DNA of 34,636 bases from Deltaproteobacteria bacterium (GTDB lineage: Bacteria > Desulfobacterota > WTBG01 > CAIYCZ01 > CAIRTM01), in contig JAJRXD010000102.1 of assembly GCA_024276465.1 (NCBI GenBank), forward strand, positions 1 through 34,636, written 5' to 3'. Made by a program: the position numbers and the translations under genes. The notes under the pieces are model-generated. The model worked only from the letters and a program-made list of their open reading frames with translations. It searched no databases and had not been told where the DNA came from. Positions 16,361 to 34,283 of the stretch are shown in pieces; the first letter of the stretch is position 1; each line of letters starts with the position of its first letter.

Positions 16361-16732
16361 TCATTTTTTATAATATTTTAAGATTCTTTCTTTATCTTCA
16401 CTTTCCTTGTCACCCTTAAAATAAATTTCTATTAGCTCAATTCTGTCCTCTTTTTCAAAATAGGCATAAATTACTCTGATACCGGACAAAACGCCCTTGC
16501 CTTTCAGTGAACGACAAGCAAATTTTTTTGCCTTGTAAACACCAGGTGTTATAATTTGCAGGCTTGGTATTTGAAAAACGCCCTTATTGTCAATGTTTAG
16601 CTTATGATAAAGGTTCAACTCGTTTTTAATGAAAGTTTCCAAATCATTTTCAAGAGTTTTGAATTTTTTAAGAAGTTTTTTTATATCCTTGTTAAACTCA
16701 GGGAGGCGGGAAACTTTACTAAATATCCTCAT
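16361..16732 (-). CDS. Putative RelE/ParE-like toxin of a Panacea-type TA pair
   Basis: A 123-residue basic protein. The C-terminal half (YKAKKFACRSLKGKGVLSGIRVIYAYF, then RIELIEIYFKGD and ERILKYYKK) has the strand order and basic residues of RelE/ParE-superfamily mRNA interferases: a core Arg-rich strand, a hydrophobic strand with Tyr, and a final helix with Lys/Tyr. The N-terminal ~55 residues are helical. It overlaps the antitoxin gene by 14 bases, as usual for such pairs, with the antitoxin first. No strong ribosome site of its own is visible, consistent with lower expression by coupling. The superfamily call is moderate; its toxicity is inferred from context. Confidence 0.75.
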   Translation of the reverse strand: MRIFSKVSRLPEFNKDIKKLLKKFKTLENDLETFIKNELNLYHKLNIDNKGVFQIPSLQIITPGVYKAKKFACRSLKGKGVLSGIRVIYAYFEKEDRIELIEIYFKGDKESEDKERILKYYKK

Positions 16733-17507
16733 TGTATTCTCTTACCAAATATGGGGAAGTTCTGTAAAAGACAGATTCATATTCAATAAATTTTCCATCC
16801 TCAGTTGTTAACCAGGGAACATCATTATGGGAATATTTGCTTATCTCGTTGGCACTCATATCAGAAAGCCTGTTAAAAACATTGTCAATTACTTCGATTT
16901 CGCTGGCCTTTAATTTTGAGAGATCCGCCTTCCTTAATGGCAGGTACTTGGTTTGGGGATACTCGAAATAACTGCTTTTAACCTTCATGATTTCTTCATC
17001 TTTTATCATTTTGTCAGCTATCTTTTTGAATTCTACAGGTGTTGGCCCATAATGGTTTTTCATGTAAGTTGCACCGATTAACTGTTCTTCATATTTTTCG
17101 TAGTAATCGAAGTCAATAAAATACAGAAGCTTATAAATCACAGTCTCACCAATGTTAGGCTTTGAACCAACCTTGTTCAGAATGTAAAGGAAAACCTCTT
17201 TGAATTTTTCTAAATTCTTCTGTGGAACATTAATTCTAATTTGATGCCCCATTTTTTTTCTTTTTTTGGTTTCAGTTAAAATAACCGTTGTCTGTTTTTT
17301 TAAGTCCAGTAAGCTCTCTACAGAAAGATTAAAAATCTCTGAAAGTTTTATTAATTCGTCTGCAGAGATTTTTCTCTCTCCATTTTCTATTTGAGAAATC
17401 GCTGGTCGTGATACTTCTAACAGTTCGGCAAGTTTTTGCTGGTTAACCCCCAGCTGCTCTCTTAATTTTTTTATTCGCTGACCAATCTTTATATAAATAT
17501 CAGGCAT
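16719..17507 (-). CDS. XRE helix-turn-helix + DUF4065 (Panacea/SocA-like) antitoxin
   Basis: I choose the ATG at 17505-17507 (262 residues) because GAGGTG lies just upstream and the XRE domain begins at once; a longer open frame to 17594 would add a hydrophobic stretch and swallow the promoter. Residues about 5-65 are an XRE HTH (IGQRIKKLREQLGVNQQKLAELLEVSRPAISQIENGER in pieces). Residues about 105-255 match DUF4065: NIGETVIYKLLYFIDFDYYEKY, GATYMKNHYGPTP, then VIDNVFNRLSDMSANEISKYSH and DVPW. This domain (PanA) is known to neutralise many unrelated toxins; the HTH should give autoregulation. The overlapping downstream gene is the toxin candidate. Confidence 0.88.
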   Translation of the reverse strand: MPDIYIKIGQRIKKLREQLGVNQQKLAELLEVSRPAISQIENGERKISADELIKLSEIFNLSVESLLDLKKQTTVILTETKKRKKMGHQIRINVPQKNLEKFKEVFLYILNKVGSKPNIGETVIYKLLYFIDFDYYEKYEEQLIGATYMKNHYGPTPVEFKKIADKMIKDEEIMKVKSSYFEYPQTKYLPLRKADLSKLKASEIEVIDNVFNRLSDMSANEISKYSHNDVPWLTTEDGKFIEYESVFYRTSPYLVREYNEDI

Positions 17508-17534
17508 TACACACCTCTTCTGGTAGTTTTTTTC

Positions 17535-17564
17535 AGCATAGCATAATGATACATATTCTGTCAA
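17535..17564 (-). promoter_or_regulatory. Sigma-70-type promoter of the toxin-antitoxin operon
   Basis: On the minus strand TTGACA (17559-17564) is followed after 18 bases by TATGCT (17535-17540). It is placed correctly for the antitoxin ATG at 17507 with GAGGTG in the leader. This supports the shorter antitoxin start. Confidence 0.6.
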
Positions 17565-17573
17565 TGCAATGTA
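17550..17573. promoter_or_regulatory. Candidate operator for the XRE antitoxin
   Basis: TACAT (17550-17554) and ATGTA (17569-17573) form the ends of an imperfect 24-bp dyad, with further pairing of the AT-rich flanks. It overlaps the -35 box of the TA promoter, where binding by the XRE domain would repress transcription. Confidence 0.4.
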
Positions 17574-17619
17574 AGAAAAAAGAACAACAAACAATCATTG
17601 AAATTTTTTTAGTGAAGCT

Positions 17620-20751: not shown

Positions 20752-22227
20752 ATGTACAATATACTCCGGAAAAAATTTTATCAATTATTTATTTGCTTTA
20801 CATCTATGTGTTCTTTTTCTTTTGCATATTATTCCATTGCAGGAATAACAGAAAACAATATTGACAAACAGCAGGCCGGGGGAGGGGCCCCTGCATTAGA
20901 AGTCGAAACCTGCATCACCTCTGAGTGTCATTTGGAGCTGATGAAAGAAAAATATGTGCATCCTAATATAAAAGAGGACAAATGCCTGATCTGCCATGAA
21001 CCGGCCAAAAAATGTACGCAATATAAATCCGGGCGTAAGCATAAATTTTCCCTGAAGGGAAAAGATGCTGAACTTTGCCTCCCATGCCATAATATCGGGA
21101 CAAAAGAATATGTCCATGAGCCCATACAGAAGGGAATATGCCTGGAGTGCCATTACCCCCACCAGTCACCGTATCCTTATTTGATTAAAAACATCCCCGT
21201 TGCCCTCATGTGCCTGAAATGTCATGTTAAGGGTATTTTTAAGGGGACAACAATTCATGGCCCTGTGGCTTTAGGGCATTGCAATATTTGCCATGAACCG
21301 CATGAATCATACTATGAAGCACTTACCCGTGGAGAACCTGTAGAAGAATGTTATAAATGCCATGAAAAAGAAAAGATGGAGTTTGACAAAGAATTTGTTC
21401 ATAAACCGGTCAGGGAAGATTGCAATAACTGTCATGACCCTCATGCCTCCCCGGAGGTGGAACGATTAAAATTACCCCCCCCTGATTGTTGCTATGATTG
21501 TCACAAAAAACAGCAGAAGTTTATTGAAAGTGCAAAAGTAAAACATGCTGCAGTAACAGATGATAAAATGTGTCTCAACTGTCACAATCCCCATGCTTCG
21601 AATCTTCCCAAACAGCTCAAAGAAGCGCCTATTGACCTTTGCCTGGTATGCCACAACAAAGAAATGGAAACACCATACGGCAACATACTTAACATGGCGC
21701 AGTTTCTTGATGATAACTCTTATGTTCATGGTCCGATTCTGAAAGGTGACTGCTCTGCATGTCACAATCCCCATGGTTCGGACTACTGGCGAATAGTGAA
21801 AAAATACTTTCCCCAGGAATTTTATGCCCCTTTTTCCCTTGGCATGTATGAGCTTTGCTTTGGCTGCCATGATAAAACCACTGCTTTAACAGAAGAGACA
21901 ACTTCTGTTACCGGGTTTCGTAATGGAGAACAAAACCTCCATTTCATGCATGTTAACAAGGATTATAAAGGCCGTACCTGCAAAGCCTGTCATAATATCC
22001 ATGGAAGCAATAACCCTCTGCACATCGCAGATGATTTCCCTTTTGGTACGATGCTTTTGCCGATTAATTATGAACCGCTTGAAAACGGTGGCAGATGTTC
22101 GCCTGGCTGTCATGAGACAAAAGAGTACAACAGAATTAATCCTGTGGAAAACAAATCAGAATTGTTTGAAATGTATGGTGGAGAAAAAGAGGAAAAGAAG
22201 GGAAGAAGAAGGAGGAGAAGAAGATAG
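20752..22227 (+). CDS. Exported multihaem cytochrome c (15 apparent haem sites)
   Basis: 491 residues with a signal peptide (about 1-30). There are 13 CxxCH motifs starting at Cys78, 109, 130, 154, 177, 200, 224, 247, 274, 297, 334, 369 and 410, plus CITSECH at 54 (Cx4CH) and CSPGCH at 449 (Cx3CH). Several are followed by PHxS (CHNPHAS, CHDPHAS, CHNPHGS), the doubled-CXXCH pattern of the extended cytochrome c3/NrfB-like families. Extra His residues (FVHKPV, YVHGPI, YVHPNI) lie before motifs as likely distal ligands. The C-terminus is a run of seven arginines. It is the first gene of the electron-transfer operon and probably acts as a periplasmic or outer-surface electron relay. No ribosome site is clear at the ATG. 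Confidence 0.92.
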   Translation: MYNILRKKFYQLFICFTSMCSFSFAYYSIAGITENNIDKQQAGGGAPALEVETCITSECHLELMKEKYVHPNIKEDKCLICHEPAKKCTQYKSGRKHKFSLKGKDAELCLPCHNIGTKEYVHEPIQKGICLECHYPHQSPYPYLIKNIPVALMCLKCHVKGIFKGTTIHGPVALGHCNICHEPHESYYEALTRGEPVEECYKCHEKEKMEFDKEFVHKPVREDCNNCHDPHASPEVERLKLPPPDCCYDCHKKQQKFIESAKVKHAAVTDDKMCLNCHNPHASNLPKQLKEAPIDLCLVCHNKEMETPYGNILNMAQFLDDNSYVHGPILKGDCSACHNPHGSDYWRIVKKYFPQEFYAPFSLGMYELCFGCHDKTTALTEETTSVTGFRNGEQNLHFMHVNKDYKGRTCKACHNIHGSNNPLHIADDFPFGTMLLPINYEPLENGGRCSPGCHETKEYNRINPVENKSELFEMYGGEKEEKKGRRRRRRR

Positions 22228-22270
22228 CTTGATCCCAGGCTTAAAACAAATTTTTTCAATGGAGGTAAGC

Positions 22271-22990
22271 ATGAAGAGCAAAGCAATGTTTGGAGCTATG
22301 ACAGGTATTGCCATGTCTGTTGCGCTGTTGTGTTCATCAACTCTTTCAGCCAGGGAGTACAAATACCTTGGATTTGAAACAGGCGGATGCAAGAAGTGTC
22401 ACAAAAAGCAGTATGAATCGTGGGTTGAAACCGTTATGGCCAATGCATATTACAGTTTGGAGCCTGGGGAAAAGGTGGAGGAAAAGAAAAAAGTAGGCCT
22501 TGACCCGCATAAAGACTATACAAAGGATCCCGAGTGCCTAAAGTGTCATGTAACAGGGTATGGTAAGCCCGGTGGATTTGTGAGCATGGAAAAAACCGAA
22601 GAGCTGCACGGCATTACGTGCGAGGCCTGTCATGGGCCTGCAAGCGGTTATCAGGCAGAGAATATCAAAGGCACGGATAAATCCGCAGAAAAACACAAAT
22701 TAGCCGATGCTGTGGCCGCAGGTCTTATGTATCCTGTCAAAGAGGATCACTGTACAAATTGTCATAATGAAGATCACAGGCACAACTCCAAAGTTGATAA
22801 GAAATATGTTTTTGATTTTAAAGAAAGGCTGGGAAGGGAGAAGAAAAAGAGTAGTAAGGATGAAGGAACTCATAAACACTACGTACTGGAATTTGATCAC
22901 GGCCCAATCAAGGATTCATTTTTTCAGGATGATCTGAAGAAAAAGGAAGCTCTTAAGAAAAAGGAAGCTCTTAAGAAAAAAGCAAAATAA
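22271..22990 (+). CDS. Tetrahaem cytochrome c554-like protein
   Basis: 239 residues from the ATG at 22271, which has GGAGG ten bases upstream; the frame is open far upstream but that part overlaps the previous gene and is rejected. A signal peptide ends near LSA (about 27). Haem sites: CKKCH at 40, CLKCH at 89, CEACHG at 117, CTNCH at 161. The pattern GGCKKCHKKQYESWVETVMANAY followed by ECLKCHVTGYG and GITCEACHGP is that of the cytochrome c554/NapC-unlike periplasmic multihaem family. The tail is three copies of a Lys-rich motif (KKKEAL, KKKEAL, KKKAK) encoded by an 18-bp tandem repeat. It lies 43 bases after the 15-haem gene in the same operon. Confidence 0.92.
   Translation: MKSKAMFGAMTGIAMSVALLCSSTLSAREYKYLGFETGGCKKCHKKQYESWVETVMANAYYSLEPGEKVEEKKKVGLDPHKDYTKDPECLKCHVTGYGKPGGFVSMEKTEELHGITCEACHGPASGYQAENIKGTDKSAEKHKLADAVAAGLMYPVKEDHCTNCHNEDHRHNSKVDKKYVFDFKERLGREKKKSSKDEGTHKHYVLEFDHGPIKDSFFQDDLKKKEALKKKEALKKKAK
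22937..22987 (+). repeat. 18-bp tandem repeat inside the tetrahaem gene
   Basis: The unit AAGAAAAAGGAAGCTCTT occurs perfectly at 22937-22954 and 22955-22972, followed by a partial third unit to 22987. It encodes the repeated KKKEAL tail. Copy number could change by slippage without breaking the frame. Confidence 0.9.
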
Positions 22991-23051
22991 GGCGCCAGGT
23001 AATAAAACAGCAGCCTGAATAAAACTAATTAAATTTAAATTTGAGAAGTCA

Positions 23052-23561
23052 ATGAAAAAGAAAATAACTGGTTTGTCTGTTCTGGTTATCATTTTAGCGG
23101 GTTTAATATATTCGCTGTCTGCCACCAAACTTCCGGCACTGGTTGAACAGCCGATTCTTTTCAACCATGTAAGACATGCAGAAAAGGATGTAGCATGCTA
23201 TGACTGCCATCAGTATTACAAAAATTATGCTGTTGCAGGGATACCGGATACAGAACTTTGCTACTCCTGCCACAAATCAGACAAAGACCTTAAAGAGAAG
23301 GAAGAAAAAAGAAAACTGCACGAGTATTTCACTGAAAAAATCGAAATTGAATGGAACCGCGTTAATACTCCCCTTCCTGATGATCTGGTCTTCAATCACA
23401 AAAGACATGTTGCTGAAGATATAGAGTGCGCAGAATGCCATGGAAAAATTGAAGACCAGGTTGAGACAAAACAGATGGTTGAAGATTTTAAAATGGACTG
23501 GTGCATCGAATGCCATCAAAAAGAAGAAGCAGATGAGGACTGCCTAACTTGTCATAAATAG
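23052..23561 (+). CDS. Membrane-anchored pentahaem cytochrome c (QrcA/ActA-like)
   Basis: 169 residues. An uncleaved-looking N-terminal membrane helix (residues 6-24) is followed by five haem motifs at Cys49 (CYDCH), 70 (CYSCH), 126 (CAECH), 151 (CIECH) and 164 (CLTCH, almost at the C-terminus). FNHVRH and FNHKRH before the first and third motifs look like distal-ligand sites, as in cytochrome c7/c3 modules. The gene is 19 bases before the molybdopterin-family gene; this order (cytochrome, MoOR-like, FeS, NrfD) is that of the Qrc complex, whose QrcA has six haems, and resembles alternative complex III, whose ActA has five. Likely role: electron exit or entry from the membrane complex to periplasmic cytochromes. 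Confidence 0.9.
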   Translation: MKKKITGLSVLVIILAGLIYSLSATKLPALVEQPILFNHVRHAEKDVACYDCHQYYKNYAVAGIPDTELCYSCHKSDKDLKEKEEKRKLHEYFTEKIEIEWNRVNTPLPDDLVFNHKRHVAEDIECAECHGKIEDQVETKQMVEDFKMDWCIECHQKEEADEDCLTCHK

Positions 23562-23580
23562 TTTTTATAGGGATGTATCA

Positions 23581-25944
23581 ATGAAATTAAAAAGAAGAAC
23601 CTTTCTAAAAGTTTCCACTTTGAGCGCTTTAAGCAATTTTTTTCTTCCAACTGCCTTTGCCGGAAGAAGGAGGAAAGAAAAGGAAGAACCTCTCTGGGTC
23701 CCGAAAGTCGGGCGCTATGCAAACACTATCTGCAATGGATGTTTGAGCGGGTGCGGCATACGGGTAAAGAGGGTTGAAAAGAATGCTGTAAAGATCGAGG
23801 GCAATCCGGATTTTCCCATGAATCAGGGGGGGGTCTGTCCCCGGGGACAGGCGGCCCTGCAATCCCTTTATAATCCCGACAGGATAAAAACCCCCCTGAA
23901 AAGAGCAGGTGAAAGAGGATCTGACCGCTGGGAAGAAATCAGCTGGGATTCAGCCTTAAATGAGGTAACAAGCCGCCTGCAGGGGTTAAGGCAGAAAGGC
24001 AGATCACATACTCTTGCCCTGTTAACAGGGAGAAGGGGTGAGGGAACCCCCTTTCTTTTTAAGCGCTTTATGGAAAGCTATGGTTCTCCAAACTTTATCT
24101 GGTGTCCTTCGCTGGCTGATGAGAGTGTAATCAAGGCAGATCACCTCATTGACGGCAGTGAGGGATATAAGGCCTATAATTTTACAAACACGCAATATGT
24201 TATCAGCTTTGGTGATGTTTTGCTGCAAAGCCCTGACTGTTACATGCATCTTCTTAATTCCTTCAAGCGTCTGAGGTTTGACAGGCCAGGGAGGAGGGCA
24301 AAACTGGTTTCTGTTGACAGCCGTTTTTCTACAACTGCTGCAAAAGCTGATGAATGGGTACCGGTGAAGCCAGGTACGGAAGGGGCATTGGCTCTTGGGA
24401 TAGCCTATATATTGATAAAAGAGGATCTTTTAAACTCTTCATTTGTAGAAAAGCATGCCTTTGGATTTGAAGACTGGCAGGATGACCTGGGTGAAAAACA
24501 CGTGGGCTTTAAGAATATGGTTTTAAACGAATACTCACCTGATCAGGTTTTATCCATAACAGGTGTTGCTCCGGAGGTTACCGCAAGATTGGCAAGAGAA
24601 TCAGCAGGGAACCTTCCGGCAGTGGCTGTTTGCAGTCACAGTGCATGCTTTTACAGTAACGGTGTCTACAATGCAATGGCATTCCAGAGTCTTAATGCGC
24701 TACTGGGCAGCATAAACACAGCAGAAGGGATTTTCCATCAGAGGAAGCCACCTGTAACTGATTTTCCCATTCCAGAAGCAGATGAAACCGGTAAAAAGGG
24801 GCTGGCCATGCCTCGTATTGATGGTGCGGGGAGTTCCATCTCCCCATTCACATTCAATGCTGCAGGTAATTTTCCTCAAGCTGTTTTGTCCCAAAATCCC
24901 TATCCCGCTGATATATTAATGATCTATCATTGCAACCCTGTTTTTAAACGTGTTGATTCAGAATCATTTAAAAAGGCATTTGCCAAAATACCATTCATCA
25001 TAAATTTCAGTCCGTTCATGGATGAGACAGCCCTTTATTCTGATCTTGTTCTGCCGGACTCGACTTTTCTGGAACGCTGGGAAAGCACAGCGGTTTCTTC
25101 CGGCATTGGAAGGGCTGCATTCGGGATCAGACAACCTGTAGTAGAACCTCTCTATGATACCTTAAATACAGGCGATGTCATAATAAGACTGGCCGATAAA
25201 ATCGGCAAACCCGTGTCTGAGGCCTTTCCATGGAAAGACTCTCAGCAGTTTGTTAAGGAAAGGGTCCGTGGAATTCAGGAATCAGGCAGGGGATCGGTTG
25301 TCTCGACGTATTCGAAAAAATTCTGGAAAAAGTTATTGGAAAAAGGGGGCTGGTGGGAAACAGACTATGACTTCAACCAGTCAGATAAAAAATTTAATAC
25401 TCCTTCCGGTAAATTTGAATTCTTTTCACAAACCATGAGAAAAAATTTTAAAAACAAGGCACCTCAGAAAGTGAATATAACTGCCCGGGGAGATCAAAAA
25501 TTTATGCCTCATTATGAAGCCCCTGAGTTCAATGGTGATAAGGAAAACTTTCCCCTGATTCTAATTCCCTTCCCAACAGCATCTCTGGGAACAGGAGGAG
25601 GAGCCAACCAGCCATTTCTCCAGGAAATTTTCGGGGCAGTTCATGCTCTGACCGGTGAGTCATGGGTTGAGATTAATCCGGATCTGGCAGTACGTTTGAA
25701 TATCAGGGACAAAAGCCATGTATGGATAGAATCCAGGAGAGGCAGAATAGAGACACTGGTAAAAATTTTTCCAGGCCCGCAGTCTGATGTAATCTATATG
25801 CCTTTAGGGCAGGGGCACACTGCTTTTGGAAGATATGCTGACAAACGGGGTGTAAATCCTCTTTCAGTGATGGAAAAGGCATTTGATCCTGTAAGCGGAG
25901 CTCAGGTTTTAGCAGGAACAAGAGTAAGAATATATAAAGCGTAG
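23581..25944 (+). CDS. Molybdopterin-oxidoreductase-family subunit (Qrc/Act/Psr-like)
   Basis: 787 residues. The N-terminus MKLKRRTFLKVSTLSAL is a Tat signal. The FS0 iron-sulfur cysteines are Cys51, 54, 58 and 86 (CNGCLSGCG and GVCPRGQA). The body shows the family's domains: WDSALNEV, DPxKAD-like segments, TGVAPE, NAMAFQSLNALLGSI, DLVLPDSTFLERWE, NTPSGKFEFFSQ, and the C-terminal barrel with EINPDLAVRLNIRD and YMPLGQG. At the position where family members place a Mo-binding residue the sequence reads NFIWCPSLAD, with Cys175. The related ActB and QrcB subunits are reported to lack Mo; whether this one binds it is open. A cluster of charged residues (GRRRKEKEE) follows the signal. It forms the periplasmic arm of the complex with the next two genes. 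Confidence 0.92.
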   Translation: MKLKRRTFLKVSTLSALSNFFLPTAFAGRRRKEKEEPLWVPKVGRYANTICNGCLSGCGIRVKRVEKNAVKIEGNPDFPMNQGGVCPRGQAALQSLYNPDRIKTPLKRAGERGSDRWEEISWDSALNEVTSRLQGLRQKGRSHTLALLTGRRGEGTPFLFKRFMESYGSPNFIWCPSLADESVIKADHLIDGSEGYKAYNFTNTQYVISFGDVLLQSPDCYMHLLNSFKRLRFDRPGRRAKLVSVDSRFSTTAAKADEWVPVKPGTEGALALGIAYILIKEDLLNSSFVEKHAFGFEDWQDDLGEKHVGFKNMVLNEYSPDQVLSITGVAPEVTARLARESAGNLPAVAVCSHSACFYSNGVYNAMAFQSLNALLGSINTAEGIFHQRKPPVTDFPIPEADETGKKGLAMPRIDGAGSSISPFTFNAAGNFPQAVLSQNPYPADILMIYHCNPVFKRVDSESFKKAFAKIPFIINFSPFMDETALYSDLVLPDSTFLERWESTAVSSGIGRAAFGIRQPVVEPLYDTLNTGDVIIRLADKIGKPVSEAFPWKDSQQFVKERVRGIQESGRGSVVSTYSKKFWKKLLEKGGWWETDYDFNQSDKKFNTPSGKFEFFSQTMRKNFKNKAPQKVNITARGDQKFMPHYEAPEFNGDKENFPLILIPFPTASLGTGGGANQPFLQEIFGAVHALTGESWVEINPDLAVRLNIRDKSHVWIESRRGRIETLVKIFPGPQSDVIYMPLGQGHTAFGRYADKRGVNPLSVMEKAFDPVSGAQVLAGTRVRIYKA

Positions 25945-25958
25945 ACCGAGGAAAACAT

Positions 25959-26669
25959 ATGGAAAAAGCAAAAATTCAATGGGGGATGACAATCGACCTT
26001 GACCTGTGCATTGGCTGCCAGGCCTGTACCCTTGCGTGCAAGCAGGAGAATAACATATCTTTTGTTTCCCAGAAACAGGCAAAAATGGGAAGAATTATCG
26101 AGTGGAACCAGGTTATTCATACAGTCAAAGGGGAAGTCCCTTACACGAAACTTCGCTTTCTTCCCAGATTATGCAATCACTGTGAACAGCCGGCCTGTAC
26201 AAAGGTTTGTCCTGTGGGGGCTACTTACAAAAACCCTGAAGGCCTGGTTGCTCAAATTTATACCCGCTGCATTGGCTGTCGATTCTGTACTGTTGCCTGT
26301 CCATATACCGCAAGATACTTTAACTGGTATACCCCCGAGTGGCCGGAGGAGATGAAAAAGTCTTTAAACCCTGATGTTTACGTCAGAACCAAAGGAGTTG
26401 CTGAAAAATGTACATTCTGTTCTCAGAGGATCAGGGCGGCTAAAGACAAGGCCAAAGATGAGGAAAGAGAGTTGAGGGATGGTGATGTTGTCCCTGCCTG
26501 TGTGGAGATATGTCCCACCAAGGCAAGGCTTTTTGGCAATCTCGCTGACTCTGAGAGCAGGGTTGCAAAATTGTCCAGAAGTCCGAGGGCATTCAGACTA
26601 TTGGCGCATTTAGGTACACAACCCAAGGTTATTTACTTATCAGAAAGGGCATGGAATGAGTCAGAATAA
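25959..26669 (+). CDS. Four-cluster iron-sulfur subunit (NrfC/PsrB/QrcC-like)
   Basis: 236 residues with 16 cysteines in four complete groups: 17/20/23/27 (CIGCQACTLAC), 72/75/80/84 (CNHCEQPACTKVC), 104/107/110/114 (CIGCRFCTVAC) and 151/154/181/185 (CTFC and ACVEIC). This is the usual electron-wire subunit of CISM enzymes, passing electrons between the NrfD protein and the molybdopterin-family subunit. No signal peptide is present, so it is presumably exported as a complex with the Tat-bearing partner, as in PsrB. All four groups are complete, whereas one cluster is 3Fe-4S in Qrc and ACIII. It starts 14 bases after the previous gene and overlaps the next by 14. Confidence 0.94.
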   Translation: MEKAKIQWGMTIDLDLCIGCQACTLACKQENNISFVSQKQAKMGRIIEWNQVIHTVKGEVPYTKLRFLPRLCNHCEQPACTKVCPVGATYKNPEGLVAQIYTRCIGCRFCTVACPYTARYFNWYTPEWPEEMKKSLNPDVYVRTKGVAEKCTFCSQRIRAAKDKAKDEERELRDGDVVPACVEICPTKARLFGNLADSESRVAKLSRSPRAFRLLAHLGTQPKVIYLSERAWNESE

Positions 26670-27987
26670 CGAGTTTCCAAGTGATGACAGTGCATTAATT
26701 GACCCCATACTTAAAACCGGTCGGTGGTATTATATTTCTGTAGCCTGTCTGTTTTGCATTGTGGCCTGGGGCATCTTCAGCTGGGGCTATCAAATTCGGA
26801 ATGGACTTGGTGTAACGGGAATGAACAGGCCTATTTTCTGGGGAATATATATTGCAAACTTTGTTTTCTTTATCGGGATCAGCCATGCTGGGACACTGAT
26901 CTCAGCTATCCTGAGGGTAACCGGCGCAGAGTGGCGCAAGCCTGTAACCCGGTGTGCTGAAGCAATTACTGTTTTTGCTCTGGTGGTTGGCCCTATTAAT
27001 GTGATCATCGACCTTGGCCGGGTGGACAGGATGATGAACATTCTGCCTTTTGTCAAATGGGGGCGTTTTCAGTCTCCTCTTTTGTGGGACGTATGCTGCA
27101 TAACAGCCTATCTGATCGGAAGCGTCACCTTTCTGTACCTTCCGCTTATTCCCGATATAGCCATGCTGAGAGACAAAATAAACAAAAGAAGATGGCTGTA
27201 CAAAACACTTGCCCTGGGATGGACAGGGTCCCCCCGGCAAAAAAAGGTCCTGGAGACACTTATGTCGATTATGACTATTCTTATTATTCCTGTTGCAGTT
27301 TCAGTCCATACAGTGGTTGCCTGGGTTTTTGCCATGACCATTCAACCCATGTGGCACAGTACCATATTCGGGCCCTACTTTGTGATCGGGGCTATCTTCT
27401 CTGGCATCGCCTCTCTTATAATTGCTATGGCTATCCTGAGGAAGGCGCTTCATCTGGAAGAATATCTTAAACCGATACATTTCAATTATCTGGGCGTCCT
27501 GCTGTTAACCATGTGCCTGCTGTGGTTCTACTTTACCTTTGCAGAATATCTCACTACTTTCTATGGGGCTGAACCTGAACATATGGAGGTTTTTTATGCC
27601 AAATTAGGCGGAGAATTTACACCGTTCTTTATAGTCATGATCGTTACCTGTTTTATCATCCCTTTCATTTTTCTGGCACCAAGGAAACTTCGGACCATAA
27701 CAGGAACTGTTATCGCCTCAATTTCCATCAACATAGGAATGTGGCTGGAAAGGTTCCTGATTATTGCCCCGACACTTTCAAGACCCCGTCTCGATTACGG
27801 AGGACATGGTATTTACCATCCTACATGGGTTGAAATCTCCATTTTTGCAGGTGAAATAGCCACTCTTTGTCTCCTGTACTTCATTTTCATTAAGATATTC
27901 CCTATTATTTCCATCTGGGAGTTAAAAAAACATGATAAAGAGGAGGAAATTACAGTAAAAGAAAAGCCGGCAGAAGCCTTGAGTTAA
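26656..27987 (+). CDS. NrfD/PsrC-family integral membrane quinone-interacting subunit
   Basis: 443 residues with about ten hydrophobic segments and a charged C-terminal tail. The motif region GVTGMNRPIFWGIYIANFVFFIG continuing into SHAGTLISAIL and then WRKPVTRCAEAITVFAL is strongly conserved in ActC-type and long NrfD proteins. This subunit supplies the menaquinol/menaquinone site near the periplasmic face. It is the last gene of the operon, overlaps the iron-sulfur gene by 14 bases and is followed by a terminator. It is closer in style to ActC and long NrfD proteins than to the short PsrC (inference from the motif only). Confidence 0.94.
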   Translation: MSQNNEFPSDDSALIDPILKTGRWYYISVACLFCIVAWGIFSWGYQIRNGLGVTGMNRPIFWGIYIANFVFFIGISHAGTLISAILRVTGAEWRKPVTRCAEAITVFALVVGPINVIIDLGRVDRMMNILPFVKWGRFQSPLLWDVCCITAYLIGSVTFLYLPLIPDIAMLRDKINKRRWLYKTLALGWTGSPRQKKVLETLMSIMTILIIPVAVSVHTVVAWVFAMTIQPMWHSTIFGPYFVIGAIFSGIASLIIAMAILRKALHLEEYLKPIHFNYLGVLLLTMCLLWFYFTFAEYLTTFYGAEPEHMEVFYAKLGGEFTPFFIVMIVTCFIIPFIFLAPRKLRTITGTVIASISINIGMWLERFLIIAPTLSRPRLDYGGHGIYHPTWVEISIFAGEIATLCLLYFIFIKIFPIISIWELKKHDKEEEITVKEKPAEALS

Positions 27988-27990
27988 ATT

Positions 27991-28053
27991 AGAACCAGTA
28001 AAAGATTTCTCCACTGACTAACGTCAGTGGAGAAATGACAGGTTCTGTTTTTT
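27991..28053 (+). terminator. Terminator after the NrfD gene
   Basis: An inner perfect 14-bp stem (ATTTCTCCACTGAC at 28005-28018, GTCAGTGGAGAAAT at 28023-28036, 4-base loop) is enclosed by an outer pair AGAACC (27991-27996) and GGTTCT (28041-28046), which runs directly into GTTTTTT. It should end the electron-transfer operon and separate it from the thioredoxin-TPR genes. Confidence 0.8.
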
Positions 28054-28064
28054 CTGACAATAAA

Positions 28065-28219
28065 TAGTGCCTGAACGAAAAGTCCATTAATTACACTTTT
28101 TCTGTCATTGCGAGGGAAGTATGACCGAAGCAATCTCCTGGAAACAAAGGGATTGCTTCCCCGATTTTATCGGGGCTCGCAATGACAACTCGGAATCAGG
28201 ATTTTTCGTTCAGCCACTA
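28065..28219. mobile_element. MITE-like element with 21-bp terminal inverted repeats
   Basis: The ends at 28065-28085 (TAGTGCCTGAACGAAAAG...) and 28199-28219 are inverted repeats matching at 19 of 21 positions. Inside is a second inverted pair, TGTCATTGCGAG (28103-28114) and CTCGCAATGACA (28176-28187), with GAAGCAATC facing GATTGCTTC, and a small hairpin CCCCGAT-TTT-ATCGGGG (28159-28175). The TGTCATTGCGAG...GAAGCAATC motif is a dispersed palindromic repeat known from several bacterial genomes. The element encodes nothing. Its TA termini would fit target duplication by an IS630/mariner-type transposase, but that is a guess. It fills most of the 308-base gap between the NrfD gene and the next gene. 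Confidence 0.75.
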
Positions 28220-28295: not shown

Positions 28296-29303
28296 ATGAA
28301 AATTAAAATTATTCCCACCATTAACTTCAAAAACCTCTGCCTGTTTTTTTCAGGTGTTTTTTTCTGTTTCATCATTTCCCGTGATCTGTCAGCTTCTACG
28401 TCAAACCGGACCAAACATCTCCATGCAGGTGAAAATATCCTTTCAGAAATTGCTGATCTGGGCGGGATTGATGAAGATCTTGTGTTTTTAAAGGGGAAAA
28501 TTATTATAATGATTTTTGCTTCTGCAGAACAGGAATTTTCACAAAAAGCCCTGAGAGATGTTCAAGCCATTATAAAAAAAATAAAATCAAAAAAAATTGA
28601 TGCTATCGGTATAGTTTCTTCTTCTAAAGGCCATGATGAAGTAAAAAAGCTTATCGACAAGTATCATTTTAAGTTTCAAATTTTCTATGATGAAGATGAC
28701 ATTGCAACTAAAATGAAAGTCCTTGTCTATCCGACAACTTTAATCCTGGACAGCAAGGGAAGGCTTGCCTATTACTACTCCCTGTATTCTTCTGGTTATA
28801 AAGATGTTATCATGGCGCAGCTGGAAAAAATCAGCAAAGATGATGCCCATAACTATATCGATGCAGAGGCGAAAAAAAGGAAGCAAAAAGAAGAATTCAA
28901 AAAGGCCAGGGAGGAAATTGAAAGGGGAAATGTCAGTTCCGCAGTAGCTATCCTGACCAATATCCTCCAACAGGGGCATGATCTTTATAATACCAATTTG
29001 TTACTTGGATATTCCTATATTAAACTTAATGAACCGGAAAAAGCATTATCCTGCTTTAAAAATGCAAAAGAAATAGAGCCTGATTCAGTAAAGGTTGACC
29101 TTGGAATGGGCATAGCATATTCACGGGCAGACCAGACGGAAAATGCTGTTTCCATTTTAACAAAAATTGTTGAAAAAGATCCCACAGCTATTTTTGCCTA
29201 TCGTGAATTATCACATATTTTTGAAAAAATGGACGATGTGGATAAAGCCATTTACTATATAAAAAAAGAAATTGACAGTTTGAACCAGCAGATAAGAGAC
29301 TGA
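28296..29303 (+). CDS. Exported thioredoxin-fold (no CxxC) + TPR protein, first of pair
   Basis: 335 residues. A signal peptide or anchor spans about 13-33. Residues about 45-175 have a thioredoxin/TlpA-like fold: KIIIMIFASAEQEFSQKALRDV in the place of the usual FWATWCPPC stretch, and the cis-proline loop VYPTTLILD (Pro146). The redox cysteines are absent. Residues about 205-330 are tetratricopeptide repeats (AREEIERGNVSSAVAILTNIL, PEKALSCFKNAKEIEPD, AVSILTKIVEKDP). It is thus a redox-inactive thioredoxin fold plus protein-binding repeats in the periplasm. Position just after the cytochrome operon suggests a role in assembling or organising it, but a terminator lies between. Confidence 0.8.
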   Translation: MKIKIIPTINFKNLCLFFSGVFFCFIISRDLSASTSNRTKHLHAGENILSEIADLGGIDEDLVFLKGKIIIMIFASAEQEFSQKALRDVQAIIKKIKSKKIDAIGIVSSSKGHDEVKKLIDKYHFKFQIFYDEDDIATKMKVLVYPTTLILDSKGRLAYYYSLYSSGYKDVIMAQLEKISKDDAHNYIDAEAKKRKQKEEFKKAREEIERGNVSSAVAILTNILQQGHDLYNTNLLLGYSYIKLNEPEKALSCFKNAKEIEPDSVKVDLGMGIAYSRADQTENAVSILTKIVEKDPTAIFAYRELSHIFEKMDDVDKAIYYIKKEIDSLNQQIRD

Positions 29304-29312
29304 GGAGTTATT

Positions 29313-30464
29313 TTGAGATATTCGCTGCCCCAAAAAATTATTTATTGTTTATTAACGCTTTTTTTGTCTGGAACTGTTATCCATCCAGAAAGCGTTTCAG
29401 GAAAACTCAACAGGGGGATGTCTTTTCCTCCCTTTACACTTGGCGATGTATATGGCACCCGCACAACTTTTGCCCGGTTAAGTGCAGAAAAAAAACTGAC
29501 TGCTGTTGTTTTCTGGGCCATGTGGAATGAACAGTCCTTAGAAGAACTGAAACGGCTTCAAAACGCATATGAGCAATATCAGCCGGATGGTTTTCAGGTT
29601 GTTGCCATTAATATCGATGATCATCCTGTTTCTGGAAATCAGCTGGAAAAAATTTCCAATTACTGTAAGCAGGCAGGGATTACCTTTTCTGTTTTAATTG
29701 ATCAGAACCTGGAAACATTTCAGGAATATTCCATTATTGCCATCCCAACAACCTACCTCGTCAGCAGGGAAAGAACTATTATATATAAACTTCCCGGTTA
29801 TTCAATTGCCGGTGCAGAACAGCTGTTTTCCAATATTAAATCCATAATGAAAACCAGTCCTGGAAAAGTTCAGACAGGTAAAACTAAAATCAGAACACCT
29901 GATGGCATAGCCTTTCGATATTTTCAAATGGCAAAGGTTCTTCAAAAGAAAGGAGACCATGATAGCGCTGTCAATGCTTTGCATAAATCAATAAATATCG
30001 ACCCGGATTTTTTAGATGCATACAACCTGCTTGGAATTCTTCTTCGCGAACAGGGAAAACATAACGATGCTGTTGAGCTTTACAGCCGTGCTCTACGCAG
30101 AAACCCTGATGATATTGCCTTAATGGCACTTTATGGTAATTTTTTGCTTGCTGCTGACAGGGAGGAGGGGTTGAAATTGATAAGAAAAGCAATAGAAACA
30201 GACCCTGATTATGCGGAGGCCCATTATTATCTGGGCAGCTATTTTTTTAAGATCGGGGAAAAAGAGGATGCGTTGAAAGAAGCCAGCACAGCTGTTAACC
30301 TGTACCCCCTTGATTCAAACGTATACTGTTTATTAGGAAACATTTATCAATCAATGGGGAAGAAGAAACTGTCCCTTGCAGCTTACAAAAAAGCTGTTAA
30401 ACTGTTTGACAAAAACGGGTTAATCATGGACTTTCCTTATTTGTCTCTCATTTCAGATCCGTGA
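29313..30464 (+). CDS. Exported thioredoxin-fold (no CxxC) + TPR protein, second of pair
   Basis: 383 residues starting at a TTG preceded by GAGGAG that overlaps the end of the previous gene's stop region; spacing is 9 bases, so the two genes are cotranscribed. A signal peptide covers about 1-30. Residues 35-180 are TlpA/ResA-like: FPPFTLGDVYG, AVVFWAMWNEQSLEEL where WCxxC would be (Asn72-Glu-Gln-Ser75), VVAINIDD, and cis-proline IPTTYLV (Pro145). The CxxC is gone, as in its neighbour. Residues 198-370 hold five or so TPRs (AVNALHKSINIDPDFLDAYN, AVELYSRALRRNPDD, LKLIRKAIETDPDYAEAHYY). A paralogous, redox-inactive pair is the best description. Confidence 0.82.
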   Translation: MRYSLPQKIIYCLLTLFLSGTVIHPESVSGKLNRGMSFPPFTLGDVYGTRTTFARLSAEKKLTAVVFWAMWNEQSLEELKRLQNAYEQYQPDGFQVVAINIDDHPVSGNQLEKISNYCKQAGITFSVLIDQNLETFQEYSIIAIPTTYLVSRERTIIYKLPGYSIAGAEQLFSNIKSIMKTSPGKVQTGKTKIRTPDGIAFRYFQMAKVLQKKGDHDSAVNALHKSINIDPDFLDAYNLLGILLREQGKHNDAVELYSRALRRNPDDIALMALYGNFLLAADREEGLKLIRKAIETDPDYAEAHYYLGSYFFKIGEKEDALKEASTAVNLYPLDSNVYCLLGNIYQSMGKKKLSLAAYKKAVKLFDKNGLIMDFPYLSLISDP

Positions 30465-31220: not shown

Positions 31221-32027
31221 TCAGGAATCATTTTCAGGAGATCCGGAAGATATCCTGAAAAGAAAGCTTTTATTCCTGTGTATCCTTTCAACCTTGTAAA
31301 TCGTATCCTGTTCTAATTTATTGTTTAAACGTGACAGCTGGAGCCGTAAAGCAGCCATATCCCTTATATCAAGCCCCATCCTCTGAGTTTCTTTGAAAAG
31401 CTCCTCATAGTTTTTTTCTCCCTGGCTTAGCAGTTTAAACAACTCGTACTGTTTAGGGCTGAGCAGGTCATGAATGTTCTCACTTTGAATTCTCCTTCTT
31501 TTCTCCTCAAAAAGTTCAGTTGGATTTTTCTTGATTTCTGCCAGTTCGTTCTTCAGCTCATCAATCAAAAGGTTCTTTTCCCTGATTTCCCTTTCCCTGT
31601 CTTCTAAAATCTGAAACAGTTCGCTGTATTCTGAGCCATCATCCTGAGCTGCGTCCTGGTTAATATTTTTCAGCTCCTCAGTATAGGAAATAAAGCTGTC
31701 CAGATCCAAAGGCTTTGAAAAGATTGCATTAGCACCACCTTTTTTTGCTTCCTGAACCAGTTCATGCATGGTGTAGGCGGTAATCATCATTACGTTGGTT
31801 TGAGGCGACAATTTTTTTATCTCTTTTAAAAGCTGGACACCATTAATTTCAGGCATTTTTATATCTGTCAGAACAATGTCAAATGACCGTTTTTTGATCA
31901 GCTCAATGGCCTCAAGACCGTTATTGACCGCAACAACTTCATACCCCTTTTCTGTCAGGATATAGTTCAGGGTTTTCAGCATTCCCAAATCATCATCAAC
32001 TATTAAAATACTGATCGATTTTTCCAT
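31221..32027 (-). CDS. Response regulator with coiled coil and winged-helix-like C-terminus
   Basis: 268 residues. A receiver domain (1-120) has all key residues: Asp11-Asp12, phosphoacceptor Asp55 (LTDIKMP), Thr83 (MITAYT) and Lys105 (FSKPLD). A charged coiled coil follows (about 135-180, LQILEDREREIREKNLLIDELKNELA in pieces). The last 70 residues (LSPKQYELFKLLSQGEKNYEELFK, then LRLQLSRLNNKLEQD and IYKVERI) look like a helix-turn-helix or winged helix in the style of OmpR-type output, though not a clear match. It pairs with the upstream sensor kinase, 111 bases away on the same strand. Output is probably transcriptional. Confidence 0.88.
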   Translation of the reverse strand: MEKSISILIVDDDLGMLKTLNYILTEKGYEVVAVNNGLEAIELIKKRSFDIVLTDIKMPEINGVQLLKEIKKLSPQTNVMMITAYTMHELVQEAKKGGANAIFSKPLDLDSFISYTEELKNINQDAAQDDGSEYSELFQILEDREREIREKNLLIDELKNELAEIKKNPTELFEEKRRRIQSENIHDLLSPKQYELFKLLSQGEKNYEELFKETQRMGLDIRDMAALRLQLSRLNNKLEQDTIYKVERIHRNKSFLFRISSGSPENDS

Positions 32028-32138
32028 AGGTCAGCTATGACAATTCTGTAAAAAGTCAGTAAACAGTGGGCAGAGTAAAAAAACTCCGGGTGCAGGCAGT
32101 GCTTGCCTGTACACCGCAGATGGATTTTTGCAAAGCCA

Positions 32139-34283
32139 TCAACTGTTCCTTTCGAAAGTTATTGTAAAAGTACTCCCCCTGCCTTCCTCACTTTCAACAT
32201 CAATTCTTCCACCGTTTGCCTCAATCAAATTTTTGGAGACAGCAAGTCCAAGGCCAATACCTTTCGCCTTTGTAGTAAAAAGAGGCTCAAAAATCCTCTC
32301 CAGATTATCTGCGGAAATTCCACAACCCTCGTCAGCAAAAGCAACTTCAACTGCAGAATCCTTCTGCCTTGAAATTACTTTGAGAGTTCCACCTTTTTCC
32401 ATGGACTGAACAGCGTTTTCTATAAAGTTGAGAAAAATCTGGGCTATCTGGGTAGGGTCGACAGAAACAGTGGGTATCTTTTCGCTTAAATCTGTTACCA
32501 CTTTGATGTTTGCCGGTATTAATGATTTTGACAACATCTCCTTGACAAGTTGATTAATGTCGATGTCAAGCCGTACAGGAGGTTTTCCCCGCGTAAAATC
32601 AAGAAGATCTGAAATAATCTTGTTTGCTATATTTATTTCCCGGGTAATTATCTGGATGTTTTCCTTAATAGCCTCATCCTCAAATGAATTCATTTTCATG
32701 TTGAAAAAATATATGGCGTTTTTTATAACACCAAGAGGGTTGCGAAGTTCGTGACTGACACTGCTTGCAAGTTCACCAAGGGTGGCAAGCTTTTCTTTCA
32801 GTAACAGAACTTCATGGACTTTTTTGAGTTCCGCAGTCCTTTCTTCAACCTTTTGTTCCAGGTTGCTTCGGGCTGATTCCAGTTCAATCGCATAATTTTG
32901 CAGCTCCTTTTCAGCCTGCTTTCGTTCAGTAACATCTCTGTCTGCACCTCTAAACCCGGTCAGGTTTTCAGCGTCGTCCAGTATCGGAGCACCATTTGTT
33001 TCAAGAATTATGTGTTTACCACTTTTATGGATGGTGTTCCTTTCAAGGTTGCTGAAGCGGCGTTTGCTGTACCCTATTTCCTGCAGAGTTTCCTTTAGTT
33101 TCTGTGCATCTCCTTCAGGCATCAGATCAAAAATGGTTTTACCAATTAATTCTTCAGGTTCATAGCCTAAAATTTCTTTTGCCAGAGGACTGACATAGAC
33201 ATATTTCAAATCAGCATCAACCTCCCATATCAGGTCATTAATGGTCTCCACCATACCTCTGAGTTTTCCTTCAGACAATGCAAGCTCTTTTGTCCTGATT
33301 TTTACCATTGAATCGAGTTCAATGTTCCATACGTTGATAAAATAAATAATTAAAAATGAAGCGCTTGCAACCAGGAAAAGTGCAATCAGGGTGGCAACCG
33401 TATATTTTACAGAAAAAGGTTTTAATAAATTGTGAAGAACTTCCTCAGGAGTGGCAAGTATCATCGACCATGTCTGGTTTTCAATCTTTAACGGATAAGA
33501 AACAGAAATTGTTTTTATTCCGTCAGGAGACAGGTACTCGCCTGTAACGATTTTACCTGCCATGACCTTTTCAAGAAATGTTTTGAAGGCTGGATCCAGG
33601 TTTTTATACTGGTCAACGATTTTTCCGGACCAGCGTTTGGGATTACATAAAATATTTCCTTTGGAATCAATAACACAGGATTCCCTGTCTGTTGTCTGCA
33701 GGGGAATAAAGCCCTTAATTAATTCATTAACTTTTATGGTAAAGACCACTACGCCTGAGAACTTTTTCTCATGGAAAAACAGGGGCATGGCAATTACAAT
33801 CCCGCTTTTGCCCATGTCAGTCCCATTAAATGTTATAAATTCAAAAACAGTTTTTCCTGTTTTCATTAACTTTGCAGTTTTAAAATATTTTCTGCCTGAA
33901 AAGTCCTGCCCGACAAGATGGGGAGAACTCAGACTGTCTCTGAGAATACCCCTGGAATCAAGAATTCGAATATCGTTTATATACAGGTCTTTCAGCTGCT
34001 TAAATGCCGCCATAATAGTTCTGCTCGCTCTCAAGTTGAATTTTTTTATGGCGGCATCAAGGGACATCTGTTCCAGTTCCTTGGTTGCCAGTTTGATATT
34101 TCTTTCAATCCCCAGTGCTGTTTGTTTAGCCACTAAAATCTGCTGCTTACTATACTGGTCTTTTATAAGTGATAGTGCCTCATTATAGGAATAGTATAAA
34201 AGAACTGCCAGAGACCCTATGGAGAGGAGGCAGACAAGAGGAAAAATTATTTTAAAATATTTTAAAATTATAGTTTTTTTCAT
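32139..34283 (-). CDS. Sensor histidine kinase (dCache-like + PAS)
   Basis: 714 residues. Membrane segments at about 8-30 and 293-318 bracket a periplasmic region (about 35-285) with the look of a double Cache domain (DIRILDSRGILRDS, then GKSGIVIAMPLF, SCVIDSKGNILCNP). A PAS domain with PAC-type end spans about 343-455 (INDLIWEVDADLKYVYVSPLAKE, ITxGFRGADRDVTERK-like). A coiled coil leads to HisKA with His511 (SSVSHELRNPLG) and an HATPase domain with N-box FIENAV, DEGCGIS, FEPLFTTK and GIGLGLA. It should autophosphorylate on His511 and phosphorylate the downstream regulator. The ligand sensed by the Cache region is unknown; small organic acids are common for this fold. Confidence 0.93.
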   Translation of the reverse strand: MKKTIILKYFKIIFPLVCLLSIGSLAVLLYYSYNEALSLIKDQYSKQQILVAKQTALGIERNIKLATKELEQMSLDAAIKKFNLRASRTIMAAFKQLKDLYINDIRILDSRGILRDSLSSPHLVGQDFSGRKYFKTAKLMKTGKTVFEFITFNGTDMGKSGIVIAMPLFFHEKKFSGVVVFTIKVNELIKGFIPLQTTDRESCVIDSKGNILCNPKRWSGKIVDQYKNLDPAFKTFLEKVMAGKIVTGEYLSPDGIKTISVSYPLKIENQTWSMILATPEEVLHNLLKPFSVKYTVATLIALFLVASASFLIIYFINVWNIELDSMVKIRTKELALSEGKLRGMVETINDLIWEVDADLKYVYVSPLAKEILGYEPEELIGKTIFDLMPEGDAQKLKETLQEIGYSKRRFSNLERNTIHKSGKHIILETNGAPILDDAENLTGFRGADRDVTERKQAEKELQNYAIELESARSNLEQKVEERTAELKKVHEVLLLKEKLATLGELASSVSHELRNPLGVIKNAIYFFNMKMNSFEDEAIKENIQIITREINIANKIISDLLDFTRGKPPVRLDIDINQLVKEMLSKSLIPANIKVVTDLSEKIPTVSVDPTQIAQIFLNFIENAVQSMEKGGTLKVISRQKDSAVEVAFADEGCGISADNLERIFEPLFTTKAKGIGLGLAVSKNLIEANGGRIDVESEEGRGSTFTITFERNS

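Follow-up and report, generated by a model that had tools for sequence, protein, structure and literature searches.

The window analysed here, a 34,636-nucleotide stretch of deltaproteobacterial DNA (contig JAJRXD010000102.1), carries at positions 20752-27987 six adjacent genes on one strand, encoding cytochromes with 15, 4 and 5 haem sites and then MoOR-family, iron-sulfur (FeS) and NrfD subunits. We propose, with a probability of roughly 0.58, that they specify a quinol:cytochrome c oxidoreductase of the inner membrane, furnished with its own periplasmic haem relay and representing a third lineage, of four-subunit build, beside alternative complex III (ACIII) and Qrc. Menaquinol would be oxidized by the product of gene 6 (D) near the periplasmic face, and the electrons would then travel along the four FeS clusters carried by gene 5 (C); gene 4 (B) may serve as a structural scaffold, perhaps as the holder of cluster FS0, without molybdenum chemistry. 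The anchored pentahaem cytochrome of gene 3 (A) would receive the electrons and donate them to the tetrahaem G2 (gene 2) and the 15-haem G1 (gene 1), giving a predicted route from D through the C clusters, and possibly B, to A and on to G2/G1. These last two would bridge the periplasm and deliver to an anaerobic acceptor, for which an MtrAB-type outer-membrane conduit, with genes elsewhere in the genome, is a possible candidate. The core is known in kind and hence not new; the pairing of such an ACIII-like core, from a known and widespread group, with a 15-haem protein is a new variation.

A core related to both ACIII and Qrc

The last four genes follow the order cytochrome-MoOR-FeS-NrfD, which is the A-B-C-D order of Qrc, as an initial annotation of this DNA had pointed out. 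The curated cut-offs of the NCBIfam Qrc equivalog models are 180 bits for QrcA, 440 for QrcB, 400 for QrcC and 570 for QrcD; the window proteins score 89.8, 309.8, 282.9 and 25.1 bits and miss all four, and a bona fide Qrc locus (L043) read in the same way passes every one. On these scores, and with an NrfD subunit that is not QrcD, the locus is indeed distinct from the Qrc of sulfate reducers as described, from which it also differs in its added 4- and 15-haem cytochromes. Two further marks that the initial annotation had used to set it apart do not hold. Characterised Desulfovibrio Qrc has six haems and a QrcB without cofactor (PMC8076601; PMC13059093). Six loci above the QrcB cut-off, however, also have a QrcA with five CxxCH motifs and no variant motif, and all four FS0 cysteines are present in their QrcB. 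Judged from these motifs, five haems and FS0 cysteines are common to both and discriminate nothing between this locus and Qrc.

With the ACIII of R. marinus, F. johnsoniae, Roseiflexus and Chloroflexus, the core shares an ActC-type NrfD, a pentahaem ActA-type cytochrome, a MoOR protein without Mo ligand and a four-cluster FeS protein. It differs in composition: ActD, ActE and ActF (the second NrfD) were searched for in the window and not found, as the initial annotation had it, whereas canonical ACIII loci of the same phylum, read alike, have a second NrfD and small membrane subunits. The MoOR and FeS proteins of the window are moreover encoded by separate genes, not fused as in ACIII.

Trees of the subunits, a comparison that the initial annotation had proposed as a check against Qrc, give three groups. 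The FeS tree places ACIII in one clade (support 100/100) and all else in another (100/100), in which Qrc forms a subclade that leaves out the window (100/97). In the MoOR tree, ACIII (100/100) stands apart from a group of the ACIII-like family, Qrc and the window (98/99) whose backbone lacks resolution; the window falls outside Qrc in the free tree, but a forced clade of window and Qrc is not rejected (approximately unbiased (AU) test, p 0.25). At the split between ACIII and Qrc, the FeS and MoOR subunits thus fall on the side of Qrc. In the NrfD tree, the window groups with the family in one clade (97/96), a second clade is ACIII (98/97), and the third, Qrc, has a long branch; a grouping of the window with ACIII alone is rejected (AU p 0.007), and one with Qrc is not (p 0.12). 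Exclusion from the Qrc clade is therefore supported for FeS; for MoOR it appears in the free tree, and for NrfD in the free tree and in the HMM score.

Since the trees give three groups, and both the Qrc models and canonical ACIII fail to describe the locus, the core is best called, from its sequence, a third lineage of the ACIII/Qrc superfamily, ACIII-like and with four subunits: it has separate A, B1, B2 and C genes, an ActC-type NrfD, a lost Mo ligand and no ActD/F. The earlier description of a Qrc-like core keeps its quinone-cytochrome complex with extra cytochromes and loses its likeness to Qrc, the NrfD subunit being ActC-like. Similarly, the claim of a distinct conduit stands as regards Qrc and canonical ACIII, but the core is no novelty, its lineage being widespread and described before (PMC9386147). 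An ACIII-Qrc clade with split ActB has also been reported in iron oxidisers (PMC4643136). Geobacter Cbc complexes were considered as a match and set aside for Cbc4 and Cbc5, the two covered, whose composition differs according to the literature. The position of the core between ACIII and Qrc in the FeS and MoOR trees bears on the common origin of a quinol oxidiser and a quinone reductase; Qrc may have arisen from ACIII-like stock when its NrfD subunit was exchanged or diverged rapidly.

The gene 6 product matches the ActC chains of solved ACIII structures with E values of 1e-60 to 1.1e-70. Aligned with the ActC quinone-site residues (taken from PMC8076601), its S140, D145 and R366 correspond to Ser164, Asp169 and Arg395, and because these three are kept the subunit likely has a quinone site facing the periplasm. 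D119 aligns with ActC His139, a position where QrcD has Asp120 and PsrC of Wolinella an Asp, and Val224 takes the place of ActC Asp253; the alignment makes a proton path in this subunit possible. Gene 5 has 16 ligand cysteines arranged in four cluster motifs, and gene 3, with five CxxCH motifs, matches the ActA chains of solved ACIII structures. Gene 4 opens with a Tat-type leader (RRTFLK). At the Mo-ligand site, where ArrA reads SVC and PsrA SLC, it reads SLA, and the position is unconserved throughout the ACIII-like family, Qrc and ACIII; because of this and of Ala179 at the position of the ligand Cys, its product is very probably no molybdoenzyme.

Cytochrome partners and recurrence of the association

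G1 contains 13 CxxCH motifs together with CITSECH (CX4CH) and a C-terminal CSPGCH (CX3CH), which makes 15. The same 13+1+1 set is exact in 19 of the 19 homologues compared, the protein of the window among them, and for this reason we take the CX4CH and CX3CH motifs as conserved haem sites rather than chance occurrences. Fifteen is thus a well supported number of haem sites, and the 15/4/5 counts of the initial annotation agree with the motifs found. The signal peptide of G1 is plain, with no lipobox evident, and its C-terminus is polybasic (KKGRRRRRRR). Like periplasmic multihaem cytochromes of the MtrA/DmsE family, G1 has paired CXXCH repeats; it matches structure 6r2q (E 6.5e-16), in our view an entry of the MtrA family, and scores 121.6 bits with the DmsE decahaem model, under the cut-off of 192.2. 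It differs from that family in its 15 haems, its conserved CX4CH and CX3CH motifs and the absence of an adjacent barrel gene. Homologues (E 1e-40) occur in 41 of 297 genomes of the phylum.

G2 has four CxxCH motifs and belongs by PF13435 (Cytochrome_C554) and by its match to the c554 structure 1bvb (2.3e-23) with cytochrome c554 of Nitrosomonas; unlike that protein it stands with a quinol complex, in a window without hydroxylamine oxidoreductase context. We place its start at the ATG at 22271, not at 21923 as in the mechanical open reading frame (ORF), because a GGAGG lies just upstream and the orthologue in genome G014 begins at the equivalent place.

Beyond gene 6, the conserved unit runs on into two TPR/thioredoxin-fold genes (28296-30464), so that the six genes of the initial annotation stand and its downstream boundary at 27987 does not. 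A TPR/thioredoxin-like gene lies near G1, mostly adjoining it, in all nine homologue neighbourhoods in which G1 was called, and 20 of the 21 TPR/thioredoxin-fold proteins listed have no CxxC. Such thioredoxin/AhpC-like TPR proteins without CxxC are conserved neighbours of the 15-haem family (window; L203, L250, L225-L236), and on contig C101 of the same genome two further G1 paralogues alternate with them. In the window, the G2-A-B-C-D block separates G1 from its TPR genes, as if it had been inserted into an older G1-TPR pair. The redox-dead TPR proteins would probably aid the folding, haem loading or docking of G1, and are possible cytochrome-folding or docking factors more generally. As side observations, genes resembling ResB/CcsA-type cytochrome c maturation proteins (judged by eye) are often found near the 15-haem homologues (L225-L236). 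The C101 locus (L203) is a big cytochrome cluster with two 15-haem paralogues, 11-, 10- and 7-haem proteins, NHL beta-propellers and a sulfatase-modifying-factor-like protein; a genome of the same family has a comparable one (G004, L230).

The gene-neighbourhood comparison put forward in the initial annotation found the six-gene order, and the TPR pair with it, again in G014, from another family of the same class. The order there, G1-G2-A-B-C-D-trxTPR1-trxTPR2, is pieced together from two contigs whose ends overlap within G2 (202 bp at 97.5%) and which are likely to join. Identities to the window are 70% for G1, 70% for A, 63% for B, 77% for C, 84% for D and 45% and 46% for the two TPR proteins. 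A second setting is locus L123, in which A-B-C-D, a 4-haem ActE-like protein (four class-I-like cytochrome c domains, by eye), G2 and a 15-haem G1 stand in one run. The NrfD tree sets L123 at a great distance from the window, and its G1 is 37% identical to that of the window and not its sister, the exact place being unsure owing to long branches. There are accordingly two or more mutually distant settings in which G1 and G2 accompany the core, and with L123 so distant and its G1 so divergent the association probably arose, or was retained, on more than one occasion.

A scan of named genomes with an alignment of D gave at least 80 loci, and of the 80 retained 68 were readable; the counts that follow are among the matches listed, and they are minima, since contig ends truncate many loci and ORF picking loses genes in GC-rich DNA. 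The same scan with a single MoOR protein as query gave no matches. At least 68 readable ACIII-like loci occur in at least 18 named phyla, including Acidobacteriota, Myxococcota, Bacteroidota, Ignavibacteriota, Planctomycetota and Nitrospirota. Full A-B-C-D is present in at least 37 of them, a 330-560-aa protein with 3-5 haems in at least 42, a c554-type protein in at least 9 and a cytochrome of eight or more haems in at least 9. The 4-haem ActE-like partner, common (about 42 of 68 loci) and not universal, is absent from the window, where the c554-type G2 and the 15-haem G1 stand in its place; in L123 it lies beside both. Two loci (L032 and L096, in G023 and G224) hold the top-scoring relatives of gene 4 after G014 and lie beside cytochrome c oxidase-like genes, judged by size and number of transmembrane segments, which suggests an oxidase-linked branch of the ACIII-like lineage. 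A related core in an Anaerolineales locus (L171) has a gene for a 17-haem protein between its MoOR and NrfD genes.

The closest described system is that of Ca. Deferrimicrobium, with an ACIII-like cluster of ActABCD and a 4-haem ActE-like protein (PMC9386147). Cluster 4 of Ca. Deferrimicrobium borealis SHF-111 (MBNT15; PMC9386147) is compared here by its description, in which ActD is listed, and its subunit letters are not matched to sequences. Like the window it has ACIII-type A, B and C without ActF and a multihaem partner, and it is not beside an oxidase; it has been proposed to serve Fe(III) reduction. Its partner is the 4-haem ActE-like protein, whereas the window has the 15-haem and c554-type cytochromes and the TPR/thioredoxin pair.

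Uncultured phyla commonly carry the four-subunit ACIII-like core, and we found no report in the literature of a purified member. Its conserved pairing with the 15-haem cytochrome offers a testable route from the quinone pool to a long haem chain, a link known, to our knowledge, in few uncultured iron reducers or syntrophs.

Direction and destination of electron transfer

Quinol oxidation is favoured because D is ActC-like, because neither an intact haem-copper oxidase nor DsrA was found in the genome (95% complete, 4.4% contamination), and because an MtrB/PioB-type barrel is encoded next to a decahaem MtrA-like protein on contig C43 (L204). The C43 locus also holds a b561-type protein and other multihaem genes. 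We hypothesize that the electrons may be delivered to the outer surface. Going further, one may picture a third ACIII/Qrc lineage, neither oxidase- nor sulfate-linked, that serves uncultured anaerobes as a dedicated quinol-to-long-haem-wire module for extracellular electron transfer, its four-subunit core having entered between a 15-haem cytochrome that is mobile and the redox-dead thioredoxin/TPR partners of that protein; we offer this as a possibility and hold it to be doubtful.

Several points weigh against a quinol-oxidizing complex with a relay of its own. Direction cannot be read from the sequence, since Qrc runs the opposite way with related subunits. Homologues of G1 occur elsewhere without the core, to which G1 is therefore not dedicated, and no beta-barrel gene was found in the window and no surface cytochrome in the operon. 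Two other cytochrome-b proteins of the genome could also oxidize quinol. The D subunit of the window was not found in ten genomes of the same family or order, so the core is patchy and not essential to the lineage.

Were the complex to work in reverse, as Qrc does, periplasmic or extracellular electrons would enter by G1/G2 and A, and the core would reduce menaquinone; Fe(II), a syntrophic partner, a hydrogenase or a formate dehydrogenase are conceivable sources. The placement of B and C on the Qrc side of the trees agrees with such a direction, as does D119, which matches the Asp of QrcD and not the His of ActC, and syntrophic sulfate reducers that accept electrons have conserved c554-type carriers (PMC10553843). 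We nevertheless think reverse operation, and with it these sources, unlikely: D resembles ActC and not QrcD in sequence, and with DsrA not found the genome offers no sulfate-reduction sink such as Qrc serves. Conduits of this kind can be reversible, which makes sequence a weak guide to either direction.

Quinol oxidation might instead feed periplasmic acceptors only, for example a reductase encoded elsewhere in the genome, with G1 as a periplasmic store or relay and no link to the outer membrane. The locus itself, with no barrel or lipoprotein cytochrome and a plain signal peptide on gene 1, is compatible with this, and G1 homologues often lie beside TPR and ResB/CcsA-like maturation genes, not barrels. 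The MtrAB-type pair and other large cytochrome clusters of the genome, and the resemblance of G1 to MtrA-type proteins, speak for an onward path, and a purely periplasmic destination seems to us improbable. A catalytic Mo/W-bisPGD enzyme of the Psr/Phs/Arr kind, with an NrfD anchor and accessory cytochromes, would fit the MoOR fold, the FS0 cysteines and the best PDB and NCBIfam matches of gene 4, to ArrA and PsrA/PhsA, but is ruled out for practical purposes by Ala179 at a position unconserved across the whole family and by scores far below the curated cut-offs (ArrA, 340.7 against 1600; PhsA, 311.1 against 694).

Operon limits and neighbouring features

The six ORFs and their close spacing are as the initial annotation described them: successive gaps between genes 1 and 5 are 43, 61, 19 and 14 bp, and genes 5 and 6 overlap by 14 bp (Table 1). 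The terminator that it had reported after gene 6 is borne out as a prediction, a hairpin followed by a T-run with a z score of -6.45 that 0 of 200 shuffles equalled; a simple scan for consensus terminators on the + strand did not pick it up.

Table 1. Coordinates of genes, sites and other features in the window
Feature	Position	Strand	Basis
Gene 1 (G1), 491-aa secreted cytochrome c, 15 haem sites, paired-CXXCH/MtrA-like	20752-22227	+	motifs, structure match 6r2q
Gene 2 (G2), 239-aa secreted tetrahaem cytochrome, c554 family	22271-22990	+	PF13435 3.9e-26; 1bvb
Gene 3 (A), 169-aa membrane-anchored pentahaem cytochrome, ActA/QrcA type	23052-23561	+	ACIII ActA chains, about 5e-20
Gene 4 (B), 787-aa MoOR-family subunit, ActB1/QrcB type	23581-25944	+	family matches, tree
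FS0 cluster cysteines of gene 4 (C51, C54, C58, C86)	23731-23838	+	conserved in ACIII, Qrc and ACIII-like alike
Ala179 codon of gene 4, at the Mo-ligand Cys position of catalytic MoORs	24115-24117	+	alignment
Gene 5 (C), 236-aa four-cluster ferredoxin subunit, 16 Cys	25959-26669	+	cluster motifs, family match
Gene 6 (D), 443-aa NrfD/ActC-type integral membrane quinone subunit	26656-27987	+	family, structure and alignment matches
Predicted intrinsic terminator after gene 6, two-part hairpin then T-run	27990-28047	+	minimum free energy -29.5 kcal/mol
Dispersed 85-bp palindromic repeat, between gene 6 and the TPR genes	28103-28187	.	32 matches in genome
trxTPR1, TPR protein, thioredoxin/AhpC-like domain without CxxC	28296-29303	+	conserved synteny
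trxTPR2, second TPR/thioredoxin-like protein without CxxC	29313-30464	+	conserved synteny

The palindromic repeat downstream of gene 6 (Table 1) is of the type CATTGCGAGG...CTCGCAATG, and one copy follows a 15-haem paralogue on contig C101. It is missing at the equivalent junction of G014, where the gap is 59 bp. Outside the operon, positions 16719-17594 encode a protein with a helix-turn-helix and a SocA-like (Panacea) antitoxin domain, a candidate component of a toxin-antitoxin system. On the opposite strand, 31221-34283 holds a two-component pair, a dCache-PAS histidine kinase and a response regulator; in G014 (L249), a different kinase/regulator pair lies directly upstream of gene 1.

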